Origin: Lineus longissimus
Taxonomy: Eukaryota; Nemertea; Pilidiophora; Heteronemertea; Lineidae
Assembly (NCBI RefSeq): GCF_910592395.1
Contig: NC_088318.1
Coordinates: 12,586,349-12,650,348 of the forward strand
DNA length: 64,000 nucleotides
Direction of reading: 5' to 3'
Part shown: one piece after another, positions 9,551 through 56,494 of the stretch
How positions within the stretch are numbered: position 1 is the stretch's first letter
How the letters are laid out: each line of letters starts with the position of its first letter
The notes under the pieces: model-generated
What the model was told of the DNA's origin: nothing
The model's database searches: none
What the model saw: the letters and a program-made list of their open reading frames with translations, nothing else
Made by a program: the position numbers and the translations under genes

Positions 9551-11272
<1,722 letters not shown>

Positions 11273-21938: not shown

Positions 21939-24900
21939 TTAAAACACAAACTCTGGTCCCACCATGTTAATGGCCCACTTGAACTTGTCTCGCTGAGTTT
22001 TGTTGTAGATCTTTTCGATGGGCACCTCCCATTTCTTGCACCTGTAGGATAAAGAAGACTGAATCAACTACCAATACCTCATAGCCACGCAACAGGGTCC
22101 AGGTTCGATCCCGGGGAGAACCCAGGAATGTTATTTTGATGAACTGCCTTTCCACGAATTAACCTGGATCGTCCTTCGAATGAAACCTAAAACTGAAATT
22201 CTTTGTACCCGGTGTCAATGCCAGGGCAATTAAACGATCCCACCCAGTTAGAGACATGAGTAGCCAGCTTACGTGGACTCAACCCCTGGCCGAAGACACG
22301 AGTCATGCGGCCAATAACCCCAACTTGTGCGTAACGGTACTAAGCTAAATCTCTTGCCTTTGAGGAGGAATACCCCCTGGAGAATATCAGCTCCAAGTGC
22401 AGAGAGAACACAGAAGAAGACTCGATTCCCATTCGATTCAACTTCCAAGTGCTCTGTCGCATATTGACTGACTGGTCAACTTACCACGCCACGCTGATCC
22501 TGGGATCCAGATAATTGAGCTTGGACGTTCCCAGGGCAATCTCCTTGTTCTCGTCCTTGTCAGTCTGTAGCACTTCGAGTTTTGTCAGCTGTTCTTCGAG
22601 GCGCTCAAGCTGTTTCTTCTTGCGGTCGTAGTTGCTAAACACAATAACAATCGTGATGAATTGGCAATTGTACGATGCAGCATTCCAGGGAAAGAGTCTT
22701 CGACTTCACATAAGTGCAATGCACGAAAGTGATTGTTATTGCAACATATTTGAAGTTAATCTTATCAGAGACTGATTGAAACGTAGTTATATAAATTAAG
22801 TATAAACGGTCAGGATCTAAACTCTTCTGTTCTCGCTCAGCACAGATGCGTACTTCATGGGGATCAGAAGTCTAACATGTTAAAACATCATTTCGAGAAC
22901 AAAACACTCTGTCAACAGTTGGGGGAGTTTCACAGGGTACATCCGAAGTACATACCTCTTATTTTTCTCATTCTTGCAGTTCTTGAAGTCAACCTTTGCT
23001 TGTTTGACATTCCTCTTAGCTTCCTTGATTGTATCAAGCTTGGCATCAATCTGTAATAGAATCAAAGATATAAGCCTCTACCTGTACACAATGCTGGGCA
23101 ACAATCTGTAATAGAATCAAAGAGATAAGCCTCTACCTGTACACAATGCTGTGTTTCCAGCACTGGGACCAATTCCAGAAAAATTCAAGGCGTTTATGAA
23201 ATGTTTACTAACCTTAATTTGGAGATTCTCCATCTGTTTTGAGAAGTTTTTCGGCACTGCCCTCTGATGGTTACACAACACAGCTACCGCCCTATTGGCT
23301 CTGTTGTACGACAATAGTTTGGCGGGAACAAGATCTTCTTCTGCAAATGGAACAGAGTATAATCATAATAGTTTTTGAACAGTTGTACTTGAAAATGATG
23401 CTGCAGCTAGTTGCACTCAGTTTACCATGAAATAATTTTCGGATCTAGATTCTAGAAGAGGTGATATTTCCATAAGAGATCAAGATAAATGTTAAGATTG
23501 GTGAACCGTAAGTGGCTGCAAATGGAACAGAGTATAATCATAATAGTTTTTGAACAGTTGTACTTGAAAATGATGCTGCAGCTAGTTGCACTCAGTTTAC
23601 CATGAAATAATTTTCGGATCTAGATTCTAGAAGAGGTGATATCTCCATAAGAGATCAAAATAAATGTTAGATTGGTGAACCGTAAGTGGTTTTCCGTCCA
23701 GACATACCTTGAGTGAGGAGATCAAGTTGCTCCTGTAACGTTCTCGAGGCATTGTACGTCCTGAACACCTTGGCAGTGAGTCCATCCATCAGCTCATGGA
23801 GGTACTTGTTTAGAATGGAGGTCTGCAAGAAACAATATCAATTTAGAAAAGTCAATAAGGATATAGAGTGAAGAAAGAACTGGCTTCGATACGCCAAAGG
23901 TATTCTGTGTCATGTGGGCGAATGGCCAATTCTCCATCCACAAACGTCATTATTTGGCTTTTAATTTAATGTCAAACCTGATCCTGATTGTTCTAACCCT
24001 ATTTGATACAGAAGATTCTCTAGTCATTGGGTACAGTAGAATCTTGGATGAAGAATTTCAGATGTATTACTCAAAATGCTCTCGATCAGTGGAATTTGTG
24101 CTTCATAACTTTATCAGAAGTCTAACATGTTGTACATCATTTCGAGAACATTGCAGGTGACCAAGATCGCAGGTCGTAGCAGCACAAATTAATCAATTGG
24201 GCGGCGCTTAGGACCGCAATGGACATAACTAGGAAATTCTTGTTTGGCACCATACATGTCAATTGACTCAAGACTTCAGTCGAATACCAGGAAAACAATA
24301 GCAAAACTTGTCATATGGAAAAGGAAATACCCGGTAACATAAAAGTAACAGAGTCATAAAATACTTACATTTAATCGATCAAAAACATCGTCCTCCCCAG
24401 CCTTTTGATCAGTAAACATCTGTAGATTCTTGAAGACACGTTTCTCGACCGCGACCGCGTTCTGGTATCGAATGGAATCCTTACCGAGGAAGTCGAACTC
24501 GACGACGTAGTCCTTCCCGTTTTTATGTTCGTGCAGCGAGAGATGTTCCACGCGCAACGAGCAGCAACCAACGGTATCTGCACTCTCTCCCTCCTCTTTC
24601 TCGTTACCAGCCCTCAACGCAAGCTACAAGGGAAAAAGTCAAGTTTATTTATTTATTATCGAGTCACCCTACTAAAACAGTCGAGCCACTCTTCACTTTC
24701 GAGCCACTCCTGCCTTGAAACACCAGTAATCAGGAGAGAAAACTGTAGAGAATGGGTTGCTCGTGACACCTCAAGAAATAGCACAGCCTAGGCAAATGGA
24801 CATCACAGAGCGGATTCTTCGCAATGAGACGGTTGAAAGATTCCTCAAAGGCAGATTATAGGAGTACAGTTTACTCTTGTCAAGCGAAATTCCCCACCAG

Positions 24901-27900
24901 CACTTTATAAAGTGCTGTAAGTAAGTACTGTCTCAAAGCACTTTACATTCCAGCCTAATCCAGAAAAGGTTCAGTGGAAACTAAGGAGCGCACACACTGC
25001 ATTCCACTTGGCCATTACAGGAAGAGGTCACTTGATGTGTGAAGACAAGATCTCGTGTCACAGAAATGCGTCACACTGGCTCAAGACAGGATCACGCATT
25101 ATACAAACTCACCTTATCAATAAAATAGAGAGCCACAGCCCTTTGTCTGATTCTCATCTCCTTGGACTTCCAGTCCTCTCGATACTGTGCTCGGATCTTG
25201 TCAACGCATTTATGGAGGCGTCGGGCAGTTTCGTATTTCATCCAATCCTTCTCACCCTGATGATAAACAATCACCGATTAATCAAATGATTTCTATCAAT
25301 TAAGTAATCATAAGTGTCGACCTTATAACCAGGCATTGACCCGTCACGAGTAATGCCTTGGGCAACATACTTTAAAACATTGAACTAAGTTTTAAAGTAA
25401 CTTGTGTGCCTAATCAGGAACTCTTTTCAAAATGGTCTCCCTCCAGAATTTTTTTTAAATCAGTACTTTTCAGTGTTTTTGCAAATGACCTTCAGTACTC
25501 CAAATGGAATATTGAAGAAAAAAGTTATTTTGCTTTAAGTGCTATTTCAGTTTCACACAGTTTGACAAATAAAATTGCAGGACTAAATACTAAAAGCACT
25601 GAAGAGTAGGAAATGGTTGCCAAACTGTGCAGCTGTCAAGCTCTTACCTTTATTCTAGAGTTTGCGTTCAACATGATGTACTTGATTGCTCCCTGGATGT
25701 TCTCGTTCCAACTGCACAGCCATGTCACCTAAAGAAACAACAATTGATTAGTATTTGAGCTGAAGAGTTTTGGCAGGCAGCAGCACCCTACCCTGCCTTT
25801 TATAAATTTTTTCTTTTTGCCCAGCCATTTTTCAGAAGAGTCCAACGCATTTCTATTTAAAGCAGGGCGCTGCACCAGGCTGTCTTTTTCAAGCTGTACC
25901 CTAGCCTTTTTAGATTTATCCTGACACACGGTTAGATCCATTATACTTACGGTATTGTCATGTCGAACTTCCTTCCACCTGTGACCTGCAGGAGCGACAG
26001 GAATATCCGAGTTTCTGAAAATAATGGACAACCATGACATAATTACTTGGAAGAAATAAAAGACTGCCAAATTTTTACGAGGGTTTTGTCTTTGCGAATT
26101 TTACATAACTGTGATTTGTGAAGATAAAAATCACCAAAAAAAATTTGATTGGAAAAACTGAAAGAAGTTTTGCTCACACTGGTCGCAGCTGCGATCACAG
26201 ATTCTCGCCACACGTACCTCTGATGACACAAAAAATGACTCACTTGCTACAATTGATGATGACATCTTCTGGCACAGTCCTCCGCTTCAACATGCCTTGT
26301 TTGGGATGATCACCACGTCCACGGAAAAGGCCTGGCGGTTCAATCCTGAAGTTGCCGATCTTTTCCCGGTGTCCGTCAAACGAACAGAAACCGTACTCTT
26401 CAAGAAGTCGTTCATTTTCCTCTTTGATGGCCTGAAATGCATGTAAATGATTCAAAATGTGACGATAATAGTAAACATTTTAAAGTAAAATTCCTAGGTA
26501 AATTTGAAGCACTTTATGCGGAAATTTGAGCCATCCAGGACAATTTCTTTTTTTTGGATATAATGGCCCTTTCAAGGGTTGAAAAGACAAACTACCAGAA
26601 TGCTATTTTTTGGCCAAGCCACGAAAAAATAAACTGTTTTCATTTTGTTTACTCTGTAGTTCTTGATCAGTTAAGCTTGTAATCATTTTTTTCAGCAGTC
26701 TAACATGTAAAAACATCATATCAAGAACTGAATATTACTGACTGATCCAAAGAGCATGTGGTGTACTCTGTCAGCGCAGCCATGTGCCATAAAAATTTTG
26801 ATCTACTCACAAACTTTAACAGATACCACAGCTTTCAACTGCCAGCCCATGGTCACCTCAATTGGAGTATCACAAATTAGATGCCCCATCTTATGCTGGT
26901 ATGAGATGAACGATTTTGAACACTTTCAATTACCTTTTTCTCCTCTTTACTCATAGCCTTTCTTTCTTCTGACTTCTGTTTGAAATGAGCGTCTATTTCT
27001 CTGAAGTTGCACTTCTTCAGATCTGTGATTATCTTCTTCTCATCTTCCTTCATCATCTGGAAACGAGGATGAAAAGTTACCTCAACCCTAACTAGTACAT
27101 CACAACCTCTCTATTAAGGACACCCTTGTAACATGTCATAAGAGGTGCTAACTTGGACAGTTGAGGACTGTCTAAAACAGTTGACATGATATTTATTCAA
27201 AAACCCCTAACTTCTCAACATTTGGGTTGAAAATATCCGATTTTTATTTTATTTTCCGAAATTGTGGGCCAAAAGGAACAAACCTTTCTCCAATCTGTGA
27301 AGAAGTTTTTATTGAATACGTCCTTCGTCGTGTAGTCATTATCCAACATCCTGCCATAGAAAGTAGCCACCTCTTCTGCTTCTGGACACAACCTCATCTT
27401 CTTGCCTGAAATGGATCATGACATCGAAGTGAATTTCACAAGACCAGCGTTATAGCCTACTTTGGTTAAAATGTACTTGTAATTCTTGATCAGAAATGAC
27501 GTAGTTTGATCGCACTCAACTATATCCTTTGAACAGTGGCACTTCTTTTGTCAATTGATAACCTTTTTTTGTAGCGATTTTGGAACTGTCTATTTTGTTG
27601 GAAGTTACAGAGATCATCACGCACAACACCTACAGTCAAGTGCCTCCAACATGTTAGCTGTCGACACAGCTATGCCACAACTGGGACAACAACCTATCAC
27701 ACCTACCGTCGTAATAGAAATGGACATTAGAGGGCAATGGTTCATAATCAGGAGCAAAGATCGGCCCCTTGTGTTCCAAGAAGTTCCACTTGACACCATC
27801 CCCTCGACGTTCCTCCTCCCACCATTTCCAAACTTCATCCTGTTCCCCTTCTTTCTTCACTCGCTTCTTGCCACCCTCCTGCTTAACCGGTGTCTTGTTA

Positions 27901-29652
27901 GGGGTCTTGTGGGGGGTGACCTTAGCTTTTTTCTGAAAACAGAGATAATTTAAATTTCATGAAGATTTTAGCAATTTTTCATTCTGTAATTGCCCATGTC
28001 ATAGACTACCCTATCCTTGATTAGAAAAGGTTTCAAGTTAACATCATTTTTTGTTGGTACCGTCCCATTTCTCTTTTTTAATGAATTATGAATATATAAT
28101 AAATTCACCTTTAGAGGCATGTCATCATCATCGTAATCAGCCTCGCGTTTCTTCACAGACCTTTTCACATCTGGCGTCTTCTTGCTTTTCTTTGCTCTGC
28201 GATTTTAAAGAAAGACAACTTGTTCATCAATGTGAGCAGAGAATCGCCAAAGACTATTATCAAGAAAACCTTCTACTTGCCCTGGCTACGGAGAAGACAA
28301 TTCTTATTCACTGGGTTGGCTTTAGTTATTCAATACATATACTCTAGTATAGTATACATTGCTCACCAAAACCCTCTTTTCTTAAACATTTAACCTGAGA
28401 TAGTAACAGCTTCAGTAAGACTAAGAGCATTATCTTCCAAACTATCAATGATAAATGCATCTGTAGACCTGACACTCCTGGGCGGCAATATACCTACCTC
28501 TGATCAAGGGGTTCATCATCAGAATCCTCCACTTGGCGCTTCTTCTCCTTTTTAACCTCAACCTTCTTCTTCCTGGCACTCTGAAAATGGAACGTTCGCA
28601 ATATGAAAAATAATTTCAGGAATAACAGGCTGCAAGAAAGAGAACTGTCATATATATATTTCGTTAGTTCCCAATCAGAATCAATCTGTCATCAAATATG
28701 ATCAGCAGTCTAACATGTTAAAACATCATTTTGAGAACCTAAGATGAAAAACTCAGATTTTTTATTGTCTAACCTTTTGATTTCGATACTTTTCACTTTG
28801 AGTTCAATACTTTTTACTTTGAGAACGCAGAAGAAGAAGAAGAGTAACTAGTTTACCACAACTTACCAAGGGGACGTCATCCTCACTTTCCACCGCGGCC
28901 TCATACTTGACTTTGACTGGTGAGTGTTTCCTAGGCGACAATGGTTCCTTCTTCACAGGTGATGTGTCCATGGACTCGGACTTCACTGGCACAGACTCAA
29001 CTTTGATTGTCATTTGTGGTTTCTTGGGAGCGTCTTCCCTCGACTTTCTTTCCAAGCTGGAATTCGACGACCCCTCTTTTGACTTAGATGAGGAGCCTTC
29101 TTTTGGTCTGGAACTTGAATGTCTTGAAGAGGACGAAGACCTGTCCTTGTCTTTGGATGAAGACGACGAGGACTTGTGCTTGTCCTTGTCACGATGCTCT
29201 GAACTATGCTTTGAGATACTGCTAGAGCCCTCTTTAGGCCTGGATGAGGAACTAGACGAACTCGATTTGGAATGCTCCTTATGTTTCGAGGACGAGGAGT
29301 CGCGGTGTTTGTCCGAGGACGAATGACTCGAAGACTTTCTGTCACTGCTACTGCCCTCTTTTAACTTCGAAGAAGAACTAGATGAATGTTTTGATGATCC
29401 GTCTTTGTGACGCTCACCATCTCGATGCTTCGAGCTGCTGCTCTTGTGAGATGAGGAGTTGTGACTGCTGGAACCGTCCTTGGGCTTTGAGCTGCTGTGC
29501 TTTGACGAGCTGCTACTCTTTTCTCTGTGGCTGCCTGACTTGTGATGATTTGCAACCTTGTCCTTGTGGCCATCTCCATTATGAATCTTTACAGGTCCAA
29601 CGTCCATACCATTTTCAACAGGTGCATTATTCTCCTCTGTGTCCGCCATCAT
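21939..29652 (-). CDS. TOP1: DNA topoisomerase I (type IB)
   Basis: Sixteen coding exons on the minus strand: 28867-29652, 28498-28580, 28109-28196, 27707-27932, 27284-27405, 26934-27056, 26244-26431, 25951-26014, 25648-25728, 25113-25256, 24369-24623, 23708-23822, 23213-23340, 22956-23050, 22485-22634 and 21939-22041. All phases agree; about 916 aa. Exon 1 is a Ser/Lys/His-rich low-complexity domain. The core starts at WKWWEEERR. Active-site residues are all present: Arg in [12 protein letters not shown], Lys in [11 protein letters not shown], Arg in KVFRTYNAS, His in LCNHQRA, and the nucleophile Tyr in [10 protein letters not shown], 43 residues from the end as in human TOP1. The enzyme relaxes supercoils through a 3'-phosphotyrosyl intermediate in the nucleus. 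It is longer than human TOP1 (765 aa) because of the N-terminal domain. ATG choice: ATGATGGCGGAC, 11 bases after an acceptor, so a 5' UTR exon should lie upstream. Four introns host snoRNAs. Confidence 0.97.
22060..22340 (+). repeat. tRNA-derived SINE in the last TOP1 intron
   Basis: A tRNA-like head (CCTCATAGCCACGCAACAGG, then a good B box GGTTCGATCCCGGGG) is followed by a body with CGTCCTTCGAATGAAACC and ACCCGGTGTCAATGCC. That body resembles the TTCGGATGAGACGTAAAACC type of SINE body widespread in marine invertebrates. Antisense to TOP1. Confidence 0.6.
22829..22900 (-). ncRNA. Box C/D snoRNA, TOP1 intron copy 4 (SNORD104/snR58-like)
   Basis: Minus strand, sense with TOP1, in the intron between 22956-23050 and 22485-22634. 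The terminal stem is GUUCUCG with CGAGAAC. Box C is AUGAUGU, D' box CUGA after the guide ACAUGUUAGACUU, C' is AUGAAG, and D box CUGA is three bases before the closing strand. The D' guide fits 28S rRNA AGUCUAACAUGU. The D guide (GCAUCUGUG) differs from the other copies and its target is not recognised. Confidence 0.8.
23048..23155. repeat. 55-bp tandem duplication at a TOP1 splice acceptor
   Basis: AATCTGTAATAGAATCAAAG and the following 35 bases occur twice, nearly identical. The first copy contains the acceptor of exon 22956-23050, so a second acceptor-like CAG exists in the intron. Confidence 0.85.
23341..23689. repeat. 175-bp tandem duplication within a TOP1 intron
   Basis: Copies at 23341-23515 and 23516-23689 differ at only a few positions. 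The unit begins exactly at the acceptor of exon 23213-23340, so the intron carries two copies of its own 3' end. Confidence 0.9.
24078..24149 (-). ncRNA. Box C/D snoRNA, TOP1 intron copy 3 (SNORD104/snR58-like)
   Basis: Minus strand, sense with TOP1, in the intron between 24369-24623 and 23708-23822. The terminal stem GUUCUCGA/UCGAGAGC has one G-U pair. Box C is AUGAUGU, D' CUGA after ACAUGUUAGACUU, C' UAUGAAG, and D box CUGA. The D guide reads CACAAAUUCCA, unlike the other copies. The D' guide is identical over the 12 bases that fit 28S rRNA. Confidence 0.82.
26659..26728 (-). ncRNA. Box C/D snoRNA, TOP1 intron copy 2 (SNORD104/snR58-like)
   Basis: Minus strand, sense with TOP1, in the intron between 26934-27056 and 26244-26431. 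The terminal stem is the perfect GUUCUUGA/UCAAGAAC. Box C is AUGAUGU, D' CUGA after ACAUGUUAGACUG, C' AUGAUUA, and D box CUGA. The D guide is ACAAGCUUAA. It has one of the two best sets of boxes and the best stem. Confidence 0.86.
27105..27185. repeat. Dispersed CTATTAAGGACAC-family repeat in a TOP1 intron
   Basis: CCTCTCTATTAAGGACACCC at 27110-27129, then TTGAGGACTGTCTAAAACAG. Short fragment. Confidence 0.55.
28667..28738 (-). ncRNA. Box C/D snoRNA, TOP1 intron copy 1 (SNORD104/snR58-like)
   Basis: Minus strand, sense with TOP1, in the first coding intron (28581-28866). The terminal stem is GUUCUCA/UGGGAAC with one G-U pair. Box C is AUGAUGU, D' CUGA after ACAUGUUAGACUG, C' UUGAUGA (near consensus), and D box CUGA. 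The D guide is CAGAUUGAUU. Its 3' end is 86 bases from the acceptor, close to the spacing preferred for intronic C/D snoRNAs. Confidence 0.86.
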
Positions 29653-36109: not shown

Positions 36110-39100
36110 ATGGCAGACGAGAACGAAGAGAACGAAACCATGGAAACGGCGGAAACGGTTCCAAGGGAGAAAACTCCTGAGGAAATAGCGGACTTGAATC
36201 GCAAGTATAATAAACGTAAGGCTCTAATCAAGGCCTTTGATCGTGAATTCGAGGGGGTTGAGGACATTCTCTCCAAAGAAATCCCAAACAAGGCGGAACA
36301 AATTCTGGCAGAGGCCAGTCTTGAAGAACTTAAGAACATATTCGACAACGAATATGAATTAAATAACGATATCGAAGCGGAACTCGATGGCGGCGAATTC
36401 ATCATTGAAATGGATAACATTATCGTGCGGCGGAGTCATGAGCGAAGACGTCTCATGCGTGTAAAACTGTTCGTTGAGGATTTCAAGGAGCACGCAAAAG
36501 CGGAAACAAAGAGGGAGAAACGGGACGGCACACCTTCGTCGGCAAAAACGGCAAGGTTGCCAAAACTAAGGCTTCCCATATTTGATGGGACATTCACAAA
36601 ATGGACAGCCTTCTGGGAGACAATGGAAGCAGACGTGATAAACGGTAACTTTTCGGATATTACAAAATTTAGTTATATCCTAGGGCAATTAAAGGGACCA
36701 GCGCTGGATGCGGTCACAGGCATCCACGCGACGGGAGATAACCTCGAGACGCTGACGACAACACTAAAGGAGAGGTTCGGGCAACAACGGAAAATTGTCC
36801 GAGCTCACGTGTGCAGCATTTTCGACTTGGAGCCACCCGGACATAGCTACGCAGCACTGAGCCAGTTCTACAACCACGTCATGGGAGACATCAGATCGCT
36901 CAACAACCTGGGCATCGACACGGAAGAATGTGCGGCGTTCATCATCCCAACGATGGAGAGGAAGCTGCCGAGACAGTTCCAGGACAAGATGGGGACCAGC
37001 GGACAGGACGGAGCCTTCAACCTGAAGGCGTTTTTAGAAACTTTCGTAAAGCACCTGAACAATCTAGGAGAACGTTTCAGTAGTGAAAATCGCGAGAAAA
37101 CCAAACCCGCTGAAAGTGCGAACCGGAAACCCATCTCTGCCGCAACCTTAGTGTCCAACAACGGGACAAAACCAAAATCATGCGTGTTCTGCGATGGAGA
37201 CCATTTTCCATCAAATTGTACAAAGGGTGATTCGGATCGATTCGCGGTGGTCAAAGCCAAGCGCTTATGTTTCAATTGTCTCCGACCGCACTCTGCCAGG
37301 AATTGCAGCAATCGCAAAAATTGCAACGTCTGTAATCGCAGACATCATTCATCTCTGCATAATCACTTTGCTCAACATTTTGGCGCGACGAATGCTGGTG
37401 AACAGCAAGGCGGTTCTAGTACTACTCAAACATGTGCGATACCGCGTGAAAAATCACGGTGTCCAGTAGGCCTATCCGGTGCAGGCCTATGCGACAAATC
37501 AGAGTCGGGAAGTGTCGTAAAATTAGAATCCAATAAGTTGGATAGGCCTAACGGATCGGAACGCAAAACTAGGCCTATAGATCCTGCTGCTGTAGCAGCT
37601 GAGACGGCAGAAAACAACAAAATTGTTTTGTTGGAAACGGGTCGTGTCACCTTAGAAAATGGTGATGCACAAATTAAGGCAGGGGTACTCATAGATCGGG
37701 GCAGCATGCTGTCATACATTCGCAAAGATACGGCTGTAAAATTAAAACTCCAGCCACACGGTAAGCAGTACCTAAATGTCAACGGTTTCGGGGGTCATGT
37801 AAGCAAACGGTGCTACGACATGGCATCGGTTAATGTAGCTACTAATGAAGGGCCGAAGGTCATGGATGTCTTAATCACAGATGAAATTGTGAAGCCGATA
37901 AACCAAAGCGGATGGAAAAAATGTTTGAATCATGATTACATAAAGGAATTACCCCTAGCGGACAATCTTGGTGCCAAAACTGGCAAATTAACCATAGATT
38001 TACTCATAGGATGCGATAGTGCATATTTGTTCTTGGAAAATCGCATTATCACGGGAAAACGTGGTCCCACTATACAGTTTTCAAACATCGGTTGTTTCTT
38101 GTCAGGCCCATTAGAAATAATCCAAGGGGATAGCGCTGATGCCACGACCGCCGTGGTCGGCCAAGGTGATAACGAAAGTGAGGATCGGGAGGCGGAATTG
38201 TTGAAAACTTACATGGAATCAATAACGGTCAAAAATGACGAAGGAAGCGATGGTAAGTACGATGATCAATTCCTCTCAAACTACCTTGATAAAATGCAAT
38301 TCAAAGAAGGTCATTATTATGCTCCACTCCCCTGGAAAGATGACTACCCGGAGTTAAAAACCAACGTGGACGCCTGTAGGTCCCGCCTCAATCAGGTTAC
38401 ATCTAGGCTTAGAAAATTGAATCTTGCTGATCAATACATGAAAGTAATGCAAGAAAATCTTGATAAGGGGTATGTCTCAGAGATCAGTGATGCACAGGCC
38501 TTAAAAGAATCAGATTGTCACTTCATGCCACATTTTCCGGTATTGAGAGAAAGCGCAACCACTCCTGTTAGAATAGTGTTCGATGCTAGTTGTGGTTCGC
38601 CATCATTGAATGATTGTTTACACGGTGGGCCAAATATGACACAAGATCTGGTAAGGTTGTTGATGTTATTTCGGACGGGAAAGTATGCTATCAGTGCAGA
38701 TCTGGCCCGGGCTTTCTTATCGGTTAGGTTGCTCGAGTCGGACCGGAAGTATGTGCGTTTTTTGTGGTACAAAGACAACGACATGACGAAAGAAGTTGTG
38801 CCGTATACCTGCAACACAGTCATCTTTGGTAATGTCAGTAGCCCATTTGCCTTGGCAGTCACCTTGCATAAACATCTGACTCAGTACAACACACCTGTAT
38901 CACTAGACATGTTGGCAAAGACATACGTTGATAATTTGTTGTCAGGGGTCGGCTCAGAATCGGAAGCCTTGAAGTATTACCATGAAGCTAGAGAAATCAT
39001 GTCTTCGGCAGCCTTTGACTTACGGCAATGGGCCACAAACTCGGAAAAACTGAATGAGAAAATACACGAAGACGGTACAAATGCAAAAGCAGGTCCACAA

Positions 39101-41623
39101 AATGTCCTTGGCTTAAAATGGCATTGTGTCAGGGATGAGCTTTCCGTTAGCGAGAAACGATTTGAAAAGGACAAGGTCCACACAAAAAGAACGGTAGTCT
39201 CAGAGACTTCTTCGATTTTCGATCCTCTTGGTCTTGTGGGTCCAATGGTTGTGCCAGCTAAAGCGTTCGCAAACAAACTGTGGGTTGAGAGTAAGTCTTG
39301 GGACGAGCATCTGACTGAGGATCAGAAACATGAGTGGAATGACATTCGGGTGTCATTACAAAGAGCGGATGAGATAAAATTTCCAAGATGGTTGAATCTT
39401 GAATCAGATAATCAGTTGGAAATCATTGTGTTTTGTGATGCATGCCCAACTACGGCAATCGGGTGTGTAGCATATGGTAAGCAAGGCAACCGGGTCACAT
39501 TGCTGGGTTCTAAGAACAAGGTGGTATCGCAGAAAAACAACAATCTGACGGTACCAAAATTAGAATTGCAGGCCATGGTGATGGGAGCCCAATACGCAGA
39601 TTACTTGGTCAACACATACAGGGACACTTACGCAGGAGTACACGTAACTCTCCTCACTGATTCGGAGATAGCCTTGTATTGGGTGAAATCTGACAAAAAG
39701 TTGCAGCAATTTGTCAAAAATCGGGTTGACCTGATCAGAAAGCTCACAAAGGTCGAGCAATGGTTTCACGTCAGAACGGCTGACAACATTGCTGACATAA
39801 TATCACGGGGTACAACACTCCAGGGACTGGGGAGCTCTGTTTGGTTACAGGGACCCAAGTGGTTAAAAGACGACAGCATCACTTGGCCAATCAATCCCCT
39901 AAATGATCACAAAATTGAGACAGTGTTGGTAGGGAGTGTAGAGGTGGAAAATGAATTTCTTCCAAAAAACACTAGGGTAGGCCTAACACAAATCATGGAT
40001 GTCCAACGCTACAGCTCCTACACCAAACTGTTAAAAGTGACCTCATTGGTCACCCGAGCTTTCAAACGTGGAATTCAGGCCAAGAGCAAAATTTCAGCGG
40101 ACGACATGCACGCCGCGGAACAACTATGGATTCGTAGCACTCAACAAGAGGGGTACAGCGATGTTCTGACTTATCTACGGGCAGAGAAAGCAAAGAAGCA
40201 AAAGCTTCCCAAGCGACCACCATTGGTCAATCAACTAGGCCTATTTCTCGCAGACGATGGCATGATTCACTGCGGGGGGAGGGTGCGTAACGCAAATGTC
40301 GAATTGGACAGGAAGTTTCCGATTCTACTTTCAAAAACTAGCTTTTTGTCAACGCTGATCATCCGGGATGCGCACCAACGTATAGTGCATTATGGTACTG
40401 GGGCAACAATGTGTGAACTCCGGAAAAAATTCTGGATCACATCCATGCGTTCTACAGTTCGTCAAGTTGTCAAACGTTGCGTAATCTGTAAGGTTGTAGC
40501 TGGAAGACCTTACTTGACACCACTGGCACCAGAGTTACCTGAGTTTCGGTTAAATGAACTAACCGCATTTAGAGCATCAGCAGTAGACTTTACAGGTCAT
40601 ATTTACGTTCGCAATAGGCCCACAAACAAGGTACAGAAGGTCTATGTAGCATTATTCTGTTGTCTGACAACTAGAGCGGTTCACTTAGAAGTAGTCCCAG
40701 ATATGACGGTTGAGTCATACTTGCGTGCCTTCAGACGGTTCACATCAAACTGTTCGACACCTAAACTTGTCTACTCGGATAACGCCAAAACCTTTAAGGG
40801 CGCAGAAACAGAAATCAAACGGTTGTTAGCTAACGTGAGTGGTGAAAGAGTTCAGAATCACCTTACTAGAAACGGCATCTCTTTCAAATATATACCGGTG
40901 CAGGCTAGTTGGTTTGGAGGTGTGTATGAACGCCTTATCGGGGTAGTAAAAAGCGCCATCAAGAAGACGCTTGGTAAGGCTCTGGTTGACAGTGATGAAT
41001 TAAACACCATGGTTAAAGAAATACAACAAGTTGTAAACAACAGACCGCTAACATATATGTCGTCGGAGCCAACTGAATTAGGTTTACACGCGATCACTCC
41101 GAATCACCTAATTTTCGGTAGAGATATGGATCTCTTACCTCACCAAGAGGTAGAAAACGCAGAGTTCGATCCAACATATGGCGGGAAAACCGCACTGGAA
41201 AAAATGGCACACCACAGATGCGTATTGATCAATCATTTTCGGAAACGTTTTTATGACGAGTACGTGGCCGTGTTACGGGAACGTCACATGTACGAAGTAA
41301 GTAAACAGAACGCCACAGCAGACACAATACGCTGTGGGGACGTGGTCTTGGTTCATGATAAGGATGAACGTCGGATTAACTGGAAATTAGGAAAGATCGA
41401 AAGTTTGAATACCGGCAAAGATGGGTTGACGCGTTTCGCAACTGTGCGCACAACATCGGGTAGATCAAACCGTGCGATTGGAAAATTATATCCCCTGGAA
41501 TTGCATGTTGGTCCAGAGGAAGTGCCGCCAAAGGCGGGAAATCACGTAAACGAAGGTACGCGACCGCAGCGCGCAGCTGCGAAACTCGCACGTGAACGGA
41601 TACAGAGACAATCTCAAGACTAA
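36110..41623 (+). CDS. BEL/Pao gag-pol polyprotein (intact ORF)
   Basis: One uninterrupted 1837-codon ORF. Order: a Gag-like N-terminal part; three zinc knuckles around residues 358-415 (CVFCDGDHFPSNC, CFNCLRPHSARNC, then a CNVC variant); aspartic protease with catalytic Asp529 in LIDRGS; reverse transcriptase with Asp864 in ISADLARAF and the YVDN box at 939-942; RNase H around 1109 (VFCDACPT); integrase with an HH-CC zinc region (CVIC) and the acidic triad Asp1493, Asp1557 and Glu1607; then a C-terminal tail rich in basic residues. Two features differ from the commonest motifs: Arg530 follows the protease Asp where Ser or Thr is usual, and the RT box has Asn as its second acidic position. 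Whether the element is active is not known. Starts at the first ATG after the primer site. Confidence 0.95.
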   Translation: MADENEENETMETAETVPREKTPEEIADLNRKYNKRKALIKAFDREFEGVEDILSKEIPNKAEQILAEASLEELKNIFDNEYELNNDIEAELDGGEFIIEMDNIIVRRSHERRRLMRVKLFVEDFKEHAKAETKREKRDGTPSSAKTARLPKLRLPIFDGTFTKWTAFWETMEADVINGNFSDITKFSYILGQLKGPALDAVTGIHATGDNLETLTTTLKERFGQQRKIVRAHVCSIFDLEPPGHSYAALSQFYNHVMGDIRSLNNLGIDTEECAAFIIPTMERKLPRQFQDKMGTSGQDGAFNLKAFLETFVKHLNNLGERFSSENREKTKPAESANRKPISAATLVSNNGTKPKSCVFCDGDHFPSNCTKGDSDRFAVVKAKRLCFNCLRPHSARNCSNRKNCNVCNRRHHSSLHNHFAQHFGATNAGEQQGGSSTTQTCAIPREKSRCPVGLSGAGLCDKSESGSVVKLESNKLDRPNGSERKTRPIDPAAVAAETAENNKIVLLETGRVTLENGDAQIKAGVLIDRGSMLSYIRKDTAVKLKLQPHGKQYLNVNGFGGHVSKRCYDMASVNVATNEGPKVMDVLITDEIVKPINQSGWKKCLNHDYIKELPLADNLGAKTGKLTIDLLIGCDSAYLFLENRIITGKRGPTIQFSNIGCFLSGPLEIIQGDSADATTAVVGQGDNESEDREAELLKTYMESITVKNDEGSDGKYDDQFLSNYLDKMQFKEGHYYAPLPWKDDYPELKTNVDACRSRLNQVTSRLRKLNLADQYMKVMQENLDKGYVSEISDAQALKESDCHFMPHFPVLRESATTPVRIVFDASCGSPSLNDCLHGGPNMTQDLVRLLMLFRTGKYAISADLARAFLSVRLLESDRKYVRFLWYKDNDMTKEVVPYTCNTVIFGNVSSPFALAVTLHKHLTQYNTPVSLDMLAKTYVDNLLSGVGSESEALKYYHEAREIMSSAAFDLRQWATNSEKLNEKIHEDGTNAKAGPQNVLGLKWHCVRDELSVSEKRFEKDKVHTKRTVVSETSSIFDPLGLVGPMVVPAKAFANKLWVESKSWDEHLTEDQKHEWNDIRVSLQRADEIKFPRWLNLESDNQLEIIVFCDACPTTAIGCVAYGKQGNRVTLLGSKNKVVSQKNNNLTVPKLELQAMVMGAQYADYLVNTYRDTYAGVHVTLLTDSEIALYWVKSDKKLQQFVKNRVDLIRKLTKVEQWFHVRTADNIADIISRGTTLQGLGSSVWLQGPKWLKDDSITWPINPLNDHKIETVLVGSVEVENEFLPKNTRVGLTQIMDVQRYSSYTKLLKVTSLVTRAFKRGIQAKSKISADDMHAAEQLWIRSTQQEGYSDVLTYLRAEKAKKQKLPKRPPLVNQLGLFLADDGMIHCGGRVRNANVELDRKFPILLSKTSFLSTLIIRDAHQRIVHYGTGATMCELRKKFWITSMRSTVRQVVKRCVICKVVAGRPYLTPLAPELPEFRLNELTAFRASAVDFTGHIYVRNRPTNKVQKVYVALFCCLTTRAVHLEVVPDMTVESYLRAFRRFTSNCSTPKLVYSDNAKTFKGAETEIKRLLANVSGERVQNHLTRNGISFKYIPVQASWFGGVYERLIGVVKSAIKKTLGKALVDSDELNTMVKEIQQVVNNRPLTYMSSEPTELGLHAITPNHLIFGRDMDLLPHQEVENAEFDPTYGGKTALEKMAHHRCVLINHFRKRFYDEYVAVLRERHMYEVSKQNATADTIRCGDVVLVHDKDERRINWKLGKIESLNTGKDGLTRFATVRTTSGRSNRAIGKLYPLELHVGPEEVPPKAGNHVNEGTRPQRAAAKLARERIQRQSQD

Positions 41624-54966: not shown

Positions 54967-56494
54967 GTAGGAATTTTCGCTTTATTTTCATATTTTCATT
55001 CTGGATTAGGCTCTTTGTTATGCTAATTTTTTTCAAGTTGAAACATTTTTTTAGAACCCTGTCTTGCCTACAAGTTATATATGTTATATCAAGGACGTTC
55101 AAAAAATGTCCTTAAGTTTATCGAAAATGTATACCATAAGGCAGCTTATATATTTTTGGTTATATCTGTTGAACCTCTTCATTAAGGACACCCTGGGCTG
55201 AAAAATGCTGTTCTTAATAATGAGGGGTCCTGCACCGAGGTCAAATTGAATAGACATCACTGACTCTGGAACAAATTCAGTGTCCTTTATAGATATTGAT
55301 TGGCACCGAATCCAAGATCACATGCAGAACTGTCTGCTTAATCAGTTCCGGTATTCTAAAGAATGATTAATTTGAAACTGATGCAAAATTTCAACTTCGA
55401 AATTCTGCCACCTGTTCATAGTTATTAAAATGCAAATATGTATGCAAAGCACTTTCCCTGTTCTAGTTTTACCTTTACTTTAAAGGGGAACTAAAAGTAG
55501 GCTTCAGGAGGTCCAGTTGGTGGTGGTCTTCCGGCTTCTGATACGCTCAGTTAGGGGCAAGGTCATGTTTGATTCAGCAATGTGTTCCTCAGTCCTGAAT
55601 AGTTTGGATGTACTGTAAGATAGGAGAGACCCCTATTTGCGACTTTGTGCGACTTAATCTGACCTGCTTGGCTCCTGCCTTTAGTCTCCCTTTAATGCAT
55701 GCTGATACCCAACTTAATTTCAGGTCAGAGGAGTGCTTAGGTGCATATATTGACATCCTTAACAATGAATTTCATTAGTTTTTCATTTGTTTGATAATTT
55801 TGTTTATTTGTTTGTTGCCGCGTTCCAAGTATGCATTTTCAGGTCAGAGGAGTGCCTAGGTACAACATTTTGTAATGTGGAGTAGGAGGAAACCGGATAC
55901 CCGGAGGAAACCTATGCCGTTGAGTCACTCTCTCTATCAGGAGAATATACCAGGAGCACATTGAAAGCCTGGTGGACAACTGTCTCAATCACTTTCATCT
56001 TTCTTCACTTCTGAGACCAAAAAGCAATTCATCTTTCTTCACTTCAGAGACCAAAAAGCAATTCATCGTGAGTGAATCTTTCCATCACTAATAAGGCAAA
56101 TGTTTCATGGCACCAGCAATCAGGTTATGACGTTTGACAGGAGAAATTGAAGCAATTTGTGTCAGTATTGCTTACATTCAAGAAGGGTAATTTAGATATT
56201 ATTCCAGATTGATAGGTCACAAGTCATCCCATGATAAAGTGTTCTCTTTCATGATGCCTAGTCCGATTTAGATTTGATGCATATTTTGTGGGGTTCTGTT
56301 CCTAAATATAGGCCCTTTCTGTAAACACGTTATTTTTCTGAGCCTTCATTTGAAAACCCGTCCATTCATGGCAATGGTAGGAGCTGGTAGATCAGAGAAA
56401 ATTACCACGTAGAGTTAAAGGGTCAAGTTGTTCACTGACCACAATCTACATTTACGAGTCTCCTCCGATAACAGAACAGATACCATGACAACAA
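54967..56494. other. AT-rich DNA with small duplications
   Basis: No exon recognised. 55175-55310 is a CTATTAAGGACAC-family fragment. TTTCAGGTCAGAGGAGTGCY occurs at 55720 and 55838. A 34-bp tandem duplication is at 55996-56067 (CATCTTTCTTCACTTCWGAG unit). Confidence 0.4.

Follow-up and report, generated by a model that had tools for sequence, protein, structure and literature searches.

Four introns of the topoisomerase gene TOP1 in the ribbon worm Lineus longissimus (phylum Nemertea) very probably encode box C/D small nucleolar RNAs (snoRNAs), functional counterparts of SNORD104 that arose by old duplications within the gene. The gene lies in a 64-kb stretch of genomic DNA, referred to here as the window. 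A preliminary description of this DNA had proposed paralogous C/D snoRNAs in four TOP1 introns, and this proposal is supported as the best reading: the segments of 72, 70, 72 and 72 nt that it named are found on the minus strand of the window, which is the sense strand of TOP1, and the spliced gene model places each of them in a separate intron (Table 1). The spliced TOP1 translation is identical at 916 of 916 residues to protein P0002, a DNA topoisomerase I, mitochondrial-like, of 916 amino acids from L. longissimus. The coding exons are separated by 15 introns, and four of these each hold one copy, which lies 55-219 nt downstream of the 5' splice site and 86-255 nt upstream of the 3' splice site.

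The boxes listed in the preliminary description are present in all four segments. Each copy carries box C as AUGAUGU and box D as CUGA, in agreement with the C/D motifs RUGAUGA and CUGA save that the final base of box C is U, not A, in every copy. The internal boxes are also recognisable, with an exact CUGA as the D' box in all four and C'-like boxes matching at 6, 6, 6 and 5 of 7 positions. The ends of each RNA are joined by a closing stem, described earlier as 7-8 bp long, which has at least seven pairs in every copy. Across the eight-pair helix, standard pairs fill 31 of 32 cells; the innermost pair is absent in copy 4, and copies 1 and 3 have one U-G pair each. When the partner strand is slid along, pairing falls to 25-50%.

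Table 1. The host gene TOP1 and the four predicted snoRNAs (positions in the window).
Feature	Position	Strand	Intron	Box C	LSU antisense	Box D'	Box D	Remarks
Host gene TOP1, from start to stop codon	21939..29652	minus						16 coding exons, spliced translation; coding part only
snoRNA copy 1, 72 nt	28667..28738	minus	28866-28581	28729-28723	28718-28707	28705-28702	28678-28675	
snoRNA copy 2, 70 nt	26659..26728	minus	26933-26432	26719-26713	26708-26697	26695-26692	26670-26667	
snoRNA copy 3, 72 nt	24078..24149	minus	24368-23823	24140-24134	24130-24119	24117-24114	24089-24086	
snoRNA copy 4, 72 nt	22829..22900	minus	22955-22635	22891-22885	22880-22869	22867-22864	22840-22837	

Such a combination of boxes and stem is rarely met by chance. 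A scan of both strands of the window, requiring a stem score of at least 5, an exact inner CUGA and a C'-like box of at least 4/7, returned four matches, which are exactly the four TOP1 copies. Under each of four settings, forty sequences were simulated with a first-order Markov model; mean matches were 0.025, 0, 0.05 and 0, with a maximum of 1. The box C pattern was composed once the four were known and permits their final U, so that this comparison somewhat favours them. A covariance model built from the copies scores them at 81.9-88.8 bits, as it must by construction, and yields no further copy from the window. Its next match, at 54998-55057 (14.2 bits, E 0.39), was rejected since by eye it has no CUGA. 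A look-alike, AAATGATGTTAAC, in intron 28108-27933 is missed by both the scan and the covariance model and is taken as chance.

The element that points to a function is a 12-nt antisense upstream of the D' box, kept in all four copies, which pairs with 28S ribosomal RNA (rRNA) at AGUCUAACAUGU. The fifth position from D' would be the target, a C within AGUCUAACA of 28S rRNA, and this fits the site listed for SNORD104, 28S C1327 (PMC3766210). The SNORD104 (RF00289) consensus UGUUAGACUGCUGA, comprising the antisense and the D' box, is identical in copies 1 and 2, while copies 3 and 4 differ from it by a single change, G to U, preceding D'. With the same antisense in the same register to D', the guide appears to be aimed at the 28S cytidine of SNORD104, a conserved position that the preliminary description had not named as the target. 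The pairing score upstream of D' ranges from 9 to 13 with the large-subunit (LSU) sequence used, reaching at least 12 only with L005 and L012, in line with the rRNA complementarity of about 10 nt or more expected of a box C/D snoRNA. Seven LSU sequences were used, none of them from Lineus, and their 3' part is covered only by L008 and, less fully, by L002. The target pattern was also sought in viral contigs and was not found there.

The worm copies differ from SNORD104 in a shorter spacing between box C and the antisense, and also in their host, since the entry for human SNORD104 gives 17q23 and a different host (PMC3766210). We use the name of the human snoRNA for likeness of guide. Yeast snR58 (25S Cm663) is presumably the guide of the equivalent position. 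No literature was found that links snR58 with C663 or with SNORD104, or that names Me28S-Cm788, an Rfam model considered below.

In function, each copy would be transcribed as part of the TOP1 pre-mRNA, released after splicing and then trimmed to the stem, and core C/D proteins would bind each trimmed RNA. The D'-side guide would then pair with 28S rRNA and thereby select for 2'-O-methylation the C that lies at position five from D'. Through the duplications the D' guide, boxes and stem would have been retained, and the D-side guide would have drifted; for it, the rRNAs tested offer no clear target.

The pattern of conservation between the copies is uneven. Columns 1-37, which hold the 5' stem, box C, antisense and D', have pairwise identities of 30/37 to 35/37, and box D with the 3' stem is identical at 9/12 or 10/12. 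Columns 38-61, with C' and the D guide, reach merely 4/23 to 11/24, leaving only part of the RNA common to the copies. None of 12 comparisons of 100-nt flanks rises above shuffles (68 to 199 of 200 shuffles scored as well). Because the flanks are no more alike than shuffles and the C' and D-guide columns have diverged, what is conserved is the snoRNA as a unit, and in particular its D' guide, boxes and stem. Judged from sequence, this fits duplication long ago, after which selection maintained a single guide. We infer that the copies derive from old duplications within TOP1, in mode as well as in age. In this respect, the copies show which half of a C/D snoRNA survives duplication.

The same pattern bears on whether all four copies are at work. 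It is possible, though unlikely, that only one or two are working snoRNAs and that the remainder are decaying duplicates, as the almost free divergence of C' and the D-guide stretch and the missing innermost pair of copy 4 might suggest. However, decay should erode boxes as quickly as flanks, and box C, the 12-nt antisense, D', D and a stem of at least seven pairs are kept in 4/4 copies, while similarity in the flanks and D guides is lost. Alternatively, the copies may be guides with differing second targets, each D-side guide acting on its own rRNA or another RNA. The D guides do diverge while box D and the stem stay, and there is one isolated strong match, between copy 3 and the L001 LSU, that none of 60 shuffles equalled. 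Against this, no D guide consistently matches one site in the LSU, small-subunit (SSU) and 5.8S sequences used, a partial test confined to rRNA that took in five SSU and two 5.8S sequences, none known as Lineus; we regard differing second targets as rather improbable. A mobile or repeated element resembling a C/D snoRNA and spread among introns by retroposition would explain why likeness stops at or near the snoRNA ends in all four, but is very improbable, as the copies share no flanking word of more than 5 nt in the adjoining 40 nt, show by eye no A tail in the flanks inspected, all lie on the sense strand of one gene, and have no further relative in the window.

Several observations weigh against four SNORD104 counterparts in TOP1. 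The sequence shows the boxes, the stem, the intron location and the antisense match; expression, processing and methylation are predictions from it. The pairing comparison used LSU sequences from outside Lineus, and the target core is present in all seven by construction, because the retrieval pattern contained it. Pairings of 9 to 10 bases are often equalled by shuffled guides (up to 25/60). The stem had been offered as compensatory evidence for RNA structure, and two of its eight pairs have indeed changed in both partners, which the alignment assigns to copy 2 for one pair and to copy 1 for the other; but 34 of 500 shuffles equal this count, so the covariation is present but modest.

Rfam adds to these reservations. 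Covariance models for C/D snoRNAs, proposed earlier as a check on the locus, give sub-threshold snoRNA matches for all four copies, but at gathering scores the whole window is without a match. Against a gathering score of 40, copy 1 reaches 24.5 bits with SNORD104 (E 0.019); its highest score is with snoR21 (27.4 bits). Copy 2 scores highest with Me28S-Cm788 (28.7 bits, E 1.5) and also matches R64 (25.2 bits, E 0.4) and SNORD104 (22.2 bits, E 0.093). In searches of 301 bases, copy 3 matches SNORD36 (24.4 bits, E 0.088) and R64 (22.6 bits, E 0.064), and copy 4 has its best score by bits with R64 (22.4 bits, E 0.07). R64 is among the models matched by all four. SNORD104 is not matched by copies 3 and 4, either in the 10-kb search (E<=10) or in the 301 bases (E<=1), and the best models by bits for copies 1 and 3, snoR21 and SNORD36, carry other guides. 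The lowest E-values in the 10-kb search are nevertheless those of SNORD104 with copies 1 and 2. In the further matched snoRNA models, whose gathering score of 45 the copies do not reach, the antisense beside D' is alike with small differences. Because its scores are sub-gathering, the set is not filed under RF00289 and is called a counterpart of SNORD104 by guide.

The preliminary description regarded an intron-by-intron spread of one C/D family within TOP1 as not known from the literature. This holds, as far as the searches go, for the host only: TOP1 or topoisomerase I as a snoRNA host did not turn up in searches of open-licence literature, but the spread of one family over introns of a single host has long been known. 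U14 (SNORD14) is described with three copies in hsc70 introns (PMC7277114), a likewise multiple C/D snoRNA in one protein-coding host, although both snoRNA and host are different. In chicken, nearly all snoRNA paralogs are reported to stem from duplications inside their host gene, and purifying selection to have kept the guide regions (PMC2653536), the same pattern as in the TOP1 copies. One candidate report of a TOP1 host, PMC13228274, was set aside, as its passages on TOP1 concern mRNA methylation and no snoRNA host. Matches for Nemertea and snoRNA were, judged by title, mitochondrial-genome papers, and none of them was on nemerteans.

The TOP1 copies leave the general understanding of snoRNAs unchanged. 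They likely add an as yet unannotated guide of a 28S methylation that is deeply conserved, from an unusual host gene and a phylum that has been little studied. The TOP1 product is an enzyme that works on ribosomal DNA and its transcription. It is tempting to speculate, though rather improbable, that TOP1 is a nemertean snoRNA host in which fourfold duplication couples the guide dose for one 28S methylation to TOP1 expression, and that freed D-side guides explore new targets.

TOP1 also contains other duplications. Within intron 23707-23341, positions 23341-23689 hold a near-identical tandem duplication with a spacing of 174-175 nt (154 nt at 99% and 21 nt at 100%), which is recent in view of its high identity. 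A 55-nt tandem duplication (95%) at 23038-23147 straddles the 3' end of intron 23212-23051, with its splice site, and the first bases of the following exon, and therefore presents two acceptor-like sites in succession.

Elsewhere in the window, an uninterrupted BEL/Pao-type retrotransposon frame of 1837 amino acids (36110-41623) has the domains Peptidase_A17, DUF1759, DUF5641 and Integrase_H2C2, with RVT_1 under the cut-off. A piece of a proteasome subunit (PF00227), PSMB5-like by eye, lies at 9736-10167 on the minus strand, and further proteasome-subunit pieces, also judged by eye, are probably present at 10180-11272.
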